Below, one piece after another: positions 48,164 through 49,136 of a stretch of DNA of 64,000 bases. The position numbers and the translations under genes are program-made. Source of the DNA: Burkholderiaceae bacterium (GTDB lineage: Bacteria > Pseudomonadota > Gammaproteobacteria > Burkholderiales > Burkholderiaceae_A). Numbering within the stretch: position 1 is the first letter of the stretch; each line of letters begins with the position of its first letter. Under the pieces are notes generated by a model, which made no database searches, was not told the origin of the DNA, and saw nothing but the letters and a program-made list of their open reading frames with translations. The stretch spans positions 310,001 to 374,000 of the forward strand of contig VERI01000001.1 in assembly GCA_018882785.1 (NCBI GenBank). Direction: 5' to 3'.

Positions 48164-48937
48164 ATGAGCGCCGCAGATCAAGGATCCTCCGACCGCCGCC
48201 CCGGCATCGCGATCGTTACCGGAGCTGGCAGCGGAATTGGCCGCGCGTCGGCCAGACGCCTCCTGCAGGCCGGATGGCGTGTCGCCTTGTTTGGGCGTCG
48301 CGAGACCACCCTGCATGAGACCGCCCAGTCGTGGGGGGATGCCGCCCTGGTGATCTCCGGCGACGTATCCAAGGAGCAGGACGTAGATGCCCTCTTTGCG
48401 GAAGTGGTGGCCCGGTGGTCTCGTGTCGATCTGTTATTCAACAATGCAGGAATTTTTCCGCCAGGCCAGCTCATTGATGAACTCTCCGTTAGCGACTGGC
48501 GTGAATCGGTCGAGGTCAATCTTACTGGCGCTTTCCTCTGCGCCCGCGCCGCGTTTGCGCAGATGCGCAGGCAGACGCCACAGGGTGGCCGAATTATCAA
48601 TAACGGATCCATTTCTGCGCATGCCCCGCGTCCACAGTCTGTAGGCTACACGGCAACGAAGCACGCAATCACTGGCCTGACCAAGTCGCTCTCTCTCGAT
48701 GGCCGTGCGTTTGATATCGCCTGCGGTCAGATTGACATCGGTAACGCCGCCTCTGAGATGACCGCCGGGTTTGGCGCTGCCGCCCTCCAGGCCAATGGCA
48801 GCCGCGTTGCCGAGCCCAGAATGGATGTTGCTGATGTCGCTGATGCTGTGGCCTACATGGCGGGGCTGCCGCTCTCGGCAAACGTCCTGTTCATGACGGT
48901 GATGGCCAGCAAGATGCCGTTTATTGGTCGGGGATAG
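48164..48937 (+). CDS. Short-chain dehydrogenase/reductase (SDR)
   Basis: This 257-residue classical SDR has the cofactor motif VTGAGSGIGRASARRLLQAG with GRRETTLHE, which fits NADP(H) preference (arginines after the second strand). The structural motif LLFNNAGIFPPG, the catalytic serine in IINNGSISAHAPRPQ, and Tyr/Lys in SVGYTATKHAITGLTKS are all present. The substrate is unknown. The ATG at 48164 has AAAGGAAAG just before it. Its 3' end overlaps the small DHp-like gene by 17 bases. Confidence 0.9.
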   Translation: MSAADQGSSDRRPGIAIVTGAGSGIGRASARRLLQAGWRVALFGRRETTLHETAQSWGDAALVISGDVSKEQDVDALFAEVVARWSRVDLLFNNAGIFPPGQLIDELSVSDWRESVEVNLTGAFLCARAAFAQMRRQTPQGGRIINNGSISAHAPRPQSVGYTATKHAITGLTKSLSLDGRAFDIACGQIDIGNAASEMTAGFGAAALQANGSRVAEPRMDVADVADAVAYMAGLPLSANVLFMTVMASKMPFIGRG

Positions 48938-49136
48938 ATGCCCCATCGTCTAACGCACGTGTTAATCCATGAATTGCTTTTACTGACTGGATGATTCTTT
49001 CTAAGTCGGATCGGTCTGACTCCGTGAGCGTCGCGTTTAAACCAATCAGATGTGCGCTTCCTGAAATGATCTCTAGTTCGTTGAGCAGTTGATGAATCAA
49101 CTGGCGAAGGTGCTGGCTACGGGGTGGGTTAGACAT
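48921..49136 (-). CDS. Stand-alone HisKA (DHp)-like small protein
   Basis: This 71-residue protein aligns by eye with the dimerisation and phosphotransfer helices of histidine kinases. Residues 15-30 read HQLLNELEIISGSAHL, matching the canonical HELxNPLxxIxGxAxL with His15 as phosphoacceptor, and the second helix RSDLERIIQSVKAIHGLTRA matches the second DHp helix. No ATP-binding domain follows; the gene stops at 48921. A GGAGAG seven bases before the ATG at 49136 supports it as a real gene. It is the last gene of a minus-strand cluster with an usher, chaperone, pilin and response regulator. A role as phosphodonor, phosphate sink or dimerisation partner is inference. Confidence 0.65.
   Translation of the reverse strand: MSNPPRSQHLRQLIHQLLNELEIISGSAHLIGLNATLTESDRSDLERIIQSVKAIHGLTRALDDGASIPDQ

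Follow-up and report, generated by a model that had tools for sequence, protein, structure and literature searches.

What a histidine kinase DHp hairpin could do as a gene of its own is the question raised by this locus. A 71-residue DHp-like protein is encoded at the end of a pilus gene cluster, the gene carries no ATPase domain, and the response regulator that starts the cluster has no adjoining kinase gene in the same genome.

The DHp gene and its cluster

The window, i.e., the whole stretch of 64,000 nucleotides that was analysed, belongs to a genome of 2.17 Mb, which is 98% complete. Five genes are placed in a row on its minus strand, i.e., regulator, SCPU pilin, chaperone, usher, and, as the last, the DHp ORF. 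The features are as follows.

52541..53158, minus strand: response regulator with receiver (residues 3-118) and Fis-type HTH, the presumed partner of the DHp protein
51914..52399, minus strand: SCPU (spore coat U type) pilin (E 7.3e-31)
51384..51914, minus strand: pilus chaperone by position and conservation, with no Pfam match above cut-off
49174..51381, minus strand: short usher of the outer membrane (735 aa; Pfam Usher, E 2.1e-8), with the DHp gene 37 bp downstream
49142..49147, minus strand: ribosome-binding site GGAGAG, 5 nt before the ATG, read from the sequence
48921..49136, minus strand: DHp-only protein, 71 aa (HisKA match below cut-off, hairpin model, orthologues in 7/7 genomes, pS > pN)
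49047..49094, minus strand: H-box, residues 15-30, with putative phosphoacceptor His15 and Asn19 (H+4), both invariant in the alignment
48164..48937, plus strand: SDR gene, convergent with the DHp gene, the 3' ends overlapping by 17 bp

Asp52 of the regulator was assigned by the motif DLGLPP. The cluster is regarded as a single transcription unit from gene spacing only, since the promoter and terminator scan of the pilus cluster gave a signal below chance.

The DHp ORF has 71 codons and starts with ATG, and the ribosome-binding site that the first-pass annotation had called good was found directly before it. Residues 15-30 follow H-x-L-x-N-x-L-x-x-I-x-G-x-A-x-L, as the first-pass annotation says. 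Among 200,000 same-composition shuffles, 63 contained its core, H...[NT].L..I.G. No HATPase_c domain was detected in Pfam search of the 71-aa protein, in agreement with the earlier claim that the gene stops before an ATPase domain, and Hpt (PF01627) was absent among the Pfam matches listed at E up to 10. In the HMM check against HisKA families that the first-pass annotation had proposed, Pfam HisKA (PF00512) was matched at residues 6-63 with E 8.9e-4, but the score of 19.7 bits was below the curated cut-off of 26.9. Among the eight members of alignment A1, HisKA was matched at E up to 10 by three (best E 2.3e-4), and five showed no match.

The AlphaFold2 model of the protein is a two-helix hairpin (helices 6-32 and 39-66, mean pLDDT 87.2), and nothing is folded beyond helix 2. 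In Foldseek, the top three rows were true DHp domains, but with E 0.25-0.32 and interspersed with unrelated hairpins, i.e., not above the helical-hairpin background, so the fold match alone proves little. Sequence search against solved structures gave nothing convincing.

DHp orthologues were found in all six other genomes of the genus, i.e., 7/7 in total, and the frame is open in six. The gene is placed directly between the usher and SDR genes in 6/7 genomes, whereas the G006 copy adjoins a shortened regulator; the cluster is split across contig ends in three of the seven (G002, G004, and G005), and two of the seven are just 78-79% complete. The 17-bp end overlap with the SDR gene was seen in four genomes, an overlap of 4 bp in two, and none in G006. 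In G006 (L024:7602-8297, G006:C27), a deletion fuses the regulator receiver to the apparent last residues of the usher. The regulator HTH, pilin, and chaperone are missing, almost nothing of the usher is left, and the neighbouring DHp frame is broken, although this frame break may be an assembly error because the G006 genome is 79% complete.

The sequence evolves fast, with 28-46% identity between the orthologues and the window copy. However, His15 is invariant in the seven genomes, as are Asn19, Leu21, Ile23, Ile24, Gly26, Ala28, and Leu30. The mean share of the top residue was 0.78 for residues 15-31 but lower in residues 6-14 (0.51) and in helix 2 (0.50); H-box tallies exclude the cluster P0001 described below, and G006 was counted to residue 39 only for these shares. 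Synonymous change exceeded non-synonymous change in 15/15 pairs of six genomes, with G006 excluded. The dN/dS was 0.24 for G004/G005 and 0.41-0.61 for four other unsaturated pairs, and ten pairs were saturated.

The HisKA match, the invariant His15, and the constant neighbourhood together make the DHp identity of the protein well supported. The first-pass annotation was right in describing a stand-alone DHp-like protein at the end of a pilus cluster that starts with a regulator, and the gene proved to be real and conserved. The two other findings by which it would have been judged, i.e., conservation of His15 among orthologues and their place beside this regulator and usher, also turned out in its favour. 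Comparison with the sister genus, described below, brings in a neighbouring kinase that was out of its view.

Relatives outside the genus were searched in several ways. A homologue search with the window protein, which requires shared 5-residue words and a length of 0.55 to 1.75x the query, gave one cluster, P0001 (96% identical, 13 sequences). Because this search missed even the 28-46% identical orthologues of the genus itself, the absence of a wider family means little. A broad DHp family outside the genus was considered and is unsupported, P0001 being the sole cluster from an insensitive search. The first genome scan for relatives gave no match, and the scan using the DHp alignment gave five loci, apparently the G002-G006 copies. 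In whole-genome profile search of the sister genera, the best match (E 0.0054) was placed inside a 1250-aa frame.

The regulator in a sister genus and a second DHp-only protein

Genus g2, in the same family, also has the usher and regulator, and no usher or regulator match was found in the eight genomes of genus g3 at the thresholds used. The g2 block likewise contains regulator, pilin, chaperone, and usher; SDR, hydrolase, MFS, and miaB genes are found in its vicinity. The regulator is intact in 8/11 g2 genomes. In seven of these eight (G009, G011, G015, G017, G019, G024, and G025), an MHYT kinase gene is immediately beside the regulator and divergent from it. The open frames of these kinases are 565-674 aa. 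MHYT, PAS, HisKA, and HATPase domains were confirmed by Pfam in G011 and G017, and the G009 and G015 kinases have shorter frames with partial alignment only. The H-box is present in all seven; alignment A4 comprises six of them, and the H-box of the remaining kinase, G017, was read separately.

No DHp ORF was found after the usher in the eight g2 genomes for which the stretch behind an usher was covered (G007, G009, G013, G015, G017, G019, G023, and G024), and whole-genome profile search of g2 gave no DHp ORF of the window type. No full-length MHYT kinase match was found in the window's genus (0/7). In G007 and G023, neither the regulator nor the MHYT kinase was found.

Distant regulators of the same type were searched in 399 genomes of the order, and six were examined. 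An ORF with an H-box, identified by motif, adjoins five of the six (G039, G394, G124, G137, and G175), and at the G210 regulator no kinase was seen within 1.5 kb on either side. From these ORFs and the kinases of g2, the kinase beside the regulator is likely the older arrangement.

The eighth g2 genome with an intact regulator, G013, has a second DHp-only protein. Its 79-codon ORF, P0002 (L060:4114-4353, minus strand, G013:C27), is placed in the slot of the MHYT kinase. The gene is divergent from the regulator, and directly behind it comes the same peptidase gene as behind the kinase in other genomes. The rest of G013 gave no MHYT kinase. P0002 scored 22.3 bits against HisKA, below the cut-off, and was modelled as a hairpin with pLDDT 85.9. 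Its homologues form seven clusters (P0003-P0009, 22 member sequences), all exactly 79 aa and 72-99% identical, in a search limited to at most 1.75x the query length, in which full kinases are unreachable.

P0002 is close to the MHYT DHps. Its six best matches among 16 compared segments, two of which are chance motif matches and not H-boxes, were the six MHYT DHps in the set, and profile comparison with the MHYT DHps gave E 8.4e-10 and probability 96.5. For the window DHp, the profile-comparison probability was 68 with the MHYT DHps and 51.5 with the P0002 family. Direct descent of the window DHp from the MHYT kinase was considered and is unsupported, since a G050 protein, called HDOD-type from reading its sequence, has a DHp that is nearer (E 2e-10) than any MHYT DHp (E 1.8e-4 or worse). 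Nor is the window DHp P0002 itself, as it occupies a different locus position and its nearest compared DHp is that of the HDOD-type protein.

These arrangements allow a tentative view, held with some doubt, in which two lineages each ended with a single-domain DHp replacing a multi-domain kinase at one pilus regulator. In G013, it looks like the MHYT kinase's own DHp was kept in the slot, with the sensor, PAS, and ATPase domains gone. In the window's genus, the DHp gene would be the one at the far end of the cluster.

Phosphatase, relay, and other readings

The features tested place the window protein outside the histidine kinases, the Hpt proteins, and the Spo0B/ChpT type. It probably acts on the phosphoryl group of this regulator, in either direction. 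Its biochemical role, i.e., phosphatase, relay, or passive sink, we infer from sequence.

The residues around the phosphoacceptor carry most of the choice. In the window family, the H+1 residues are Q, Q, E, V, Q, D, and S, i.e., acid in 2/7, and His15 and the H+4 Asn are kept in 7/7. In the P0002 family of eight sequences, His is invariant, H+1 is Ala in all eight, and H+4 is Thr in four and Asn in four. The MHYT kinases show H+1 Glu in 7/7, and H+4 Thr in six and Ser in one. Willett and Kirby report for the HisKA proteins in their tests that kinase activity, but not phosphatase activity, required the H+1 acid, and that the opposite held for Thr or Asn at H+4 (PMC3510030). The same source describes the DHp of NtrB or EnvZ alone as sufficient for phosphatase activity, which the ATPase domain greatly raises. 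The phosphatase reading was chosen because H+4 is kept and the H+1 acid is not conserved in two DHp-only families.

Overall, a kinase-less DHp hairpin serving as phosphatase on the cluster's regulator is the best explanation, albeit a tentative one, and specific removal of the regulator's phosphoryl group may be suggested from the residues with slightly more reserve. By its parts, the protein would work in the way of an EnvZ or NtrB DHp that has been separated from its kinase. The bare hairpin would pair with itself as a homodimer and dock on the receiver of the regulator at the head of the pilus cluster. There it would take off the phosphoryl group and turn the regulator off, doing part of the MHYT kinase's job. 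Because the DHp gene closes the pilus cluster, more of the protein would be made as the pilus genes are expressed more strongly, and this may give negative feedback.

The observed parts of this explanation are the predicted hairpin, a His and an H+4 Asn that do not vary, the constant position of the gene in the cluster, and, in other genomes, an MHYT kinase or P0002 beside the same regulator. The parallel loss in G006 was also counted in its favour, the DHp frame being broken where most pilus genes and the regulator HTH are gone. Counting against it are the HisKA matches of both DHp-only families, which are below cut-off, the fold match not above background, the profile probabilities of 68 and 51.5, and the fast evolution. 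HisKA phosphatase activity does not depend essentially on the invariant His (PMC12632262, PMC3510030), so strict conservation of His fits phosphotransfer at least equally well. PhyT also counts against it, as this protein was first named a phosphatase and proved to be a phosphotransferase in the account given by its report (PMC5898713).

The main rival is a relay, which is rated less likely than the phosphatase reading. Here the window protein would be a phosphotransferase like Spo0B or ChpT, and the phosphoryl group would pass from the receiver of a hybrid kinase to His15 and then to the pilus regulator. The hybrid kinase has the domains HisKA-HATPase-receiver, and its N-terminal half shows a Cache match below cut-off. 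All seven genomes of the genus have it, the other copies being 39-62% identical to that of the window's own genome, and the 19 other genomes of the family gave no full-length match. No Hpt match at cut-off was detected in any of the seven genus genomes, whereas two of the four tested g2 genomes have one. These two points, i.e., the hybrid kinase in every genome and no Hpt above cut-off, favour the relay over the phosphatase reading. The window's own genome has eight HisKA kinases, and for all but the hybrid a separate receiver gene lies at a distance of about 2 kb or less; two of its receivers have no kinase neighbour, and the pilus regulator is one of these. G013, the sole g2 genome in which a DHp-only protein was found by the regulator, is also the sole one of the 11 in which kinase and receiver were seen in one ORF, by cross-matched coordinates.

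Several points stand against this route. Hybrid kinases with no Hpt are common. G013 has an Hpt match above cut-off, so the missing-Hpt argument is valid for the window's genus only. The co-occurrence amounts to one event per lineage, G006 keeps the hybrid gene though its DHp frame is broken, and the incompleteness of two of the seven genomes, at 78-79%, weighs on the counts.

Specificity residues were compared as a test of the relay, with the positions mapped onto the receivers by eye and G006 excluded from the regulator rows. Receiver specificity is carried by alpha1 and the beta5-alpha5 loop (PMC2991266). In the genus, six of the seven hybrid receivers have the loop KP-[IVL]-D and five of the six regulators have KP-[IVF]-D, and the KP-F-D loop was seen in just one of the eight other receivers of the window's own genome. 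However, the alpha1 positions differ, i.e., E/D then V/L in 6/6 regulators but I/M/T/Q then N in 7/7 hybrid receivers, and in G013 neither alpha1 nor the loop matches. The outcome was therefore mixed, with the loop similar in the genus and alpha1 different.

A passive sink or dimer adaptor is improbable. The hairpin would titrate the receiver with no chemistry, or form mixed dimers with the DHp of another kinase, in the manner of RetS and GacS. In the fold search, the RetS-GacS DHp complex (PDB 7n0e) ranked first among the bacterial DHp rows, at a weak E of 0.30, and the poor conservation of helix 2 relative to residues 15-31 also fits an adaptor. Yet a pure sink needs no invariant His and H+4 Asn or Thr, which are kept in two families.

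A decaying remnant, or a small helical protein with no signalling function, is somewhat less probable again. The sub-threshold HisKA match, the fast evolution, and the broken G006 frame point this way; against them stand the presence in 7/7 genomes with six open frames, the excess of synonymous change in every pair, and the invariant H-box.

A split kinase, in which the ATPase domain of another protein would phosphorylate the hairpin in trans, is the least probable of all and is unlikely because no stand-alone HATPase was found in the window's own genome (12 HATPase_c matches, smallest frame 381 aa) or in the one-contig genome G001 (15 matches, smallest 358 aa), and the H+1 acid for the kinase reaction is not conserved, although a mycobacterial split kinase exists, on which the literature search turned up no paper.

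Known systems and variation of the pilus genes

The phosphatase and relay readings each have known counterparts. Spo0B of Bacillus, the H-box of which is presumably similar to that of the window protein, retains a second, degenerate ATPase-like domain, whereas the window protein has nothing after the hairpin. ChpT of Caulobacter has a degenerate CA domain and, by the residue numbers quoted for it, would have Ser, not Asn or Thr, at H+4. In their functions, both are alike under the relay reading. Spo0B is described as a phosphotransferase between two receivers in a relay (PMC6136694), and ChpT as a transferase of the DHp type that is dimeric and links the hybrid kinase CckA to a regulator (PMC9981736, PMC3433190).

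The DHp laboratory constructs of EnvZ, NtrB, and HK853 are alike in having a DHp with no ATPase domain and His with H+4 Thr or Asn, and phosphatase activity is reported for them (PMC3510030, PMC7005713). They differ in that they were cut by hand from full kinases, whereas the window protein is a natural gene, and its H+1 acid is not conserved. PhyT of Sphingomonas has a DHp with conserved His and Asn, is encoded at the locus of the regulator that it serves, and was suspected by its authors to derive from a kinase; it is, however, anchored in the membrane, belongs to the HRxxN type, and carries a degenerate ATPase domain as well as a putative sensor domain (PMC5898713). Pseudo-histidine kinases are described in PMC12632262 as kinase relatives minus at least one kinase function that are still in two-component networks. 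The window protein differs in having lost everything but the DHp, including the sensor and ATPase domains.

Spo0B, ChpT, and PhyT are non-kinase DHp proteins that keep the shell of an ATPase domain, and a natural protein of the hairpin only would be the least partner that a regulator needs. No report of natural DHp-only or HisKA-only proteins was found in the literature searched, i.e., open-licence papers, mostly by listing. If the pruning of a kinase is true, these would be, as far as found, the first natural DHp proteins free of both sensor and ATPase domains that are assigned to one regulator, and they would mark the step where a kinase becomes a dedicated phosphatase or phosphotransferase. 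Comparison of the MHYT kinase with the bare DHp makes this step testable with proteins of 71 and 79 residues. The window protein would show a signalling enzyme reduced in nature to one functional part. Because both proteins score under the curated HisKA cut-off, annotation based on that cut-off misses them.

The pilus genes also showed variation. In the window, the usher (49174-51381) is short, i.e., 735 aa, with a weak Pfam Usher match, and the cluster has no gene for a tip adhesin after it. In G021 (L084:3262-3935, G021:C252), the regulator and MHYT kinase are both fragments and adjacent. In G023 (L057, G023:C8), pilin, chaperone, and usher remain as a pilus cluster with neither regulator nor kinase. 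In G019 (L080:6325-10168, G019:C11), the pilin, chaperone, and usher by the regulator and MHYT kinase are just 26-47% identical to those of the window, a pattern that looks as if the pilus genes were swapped under the same regulator.
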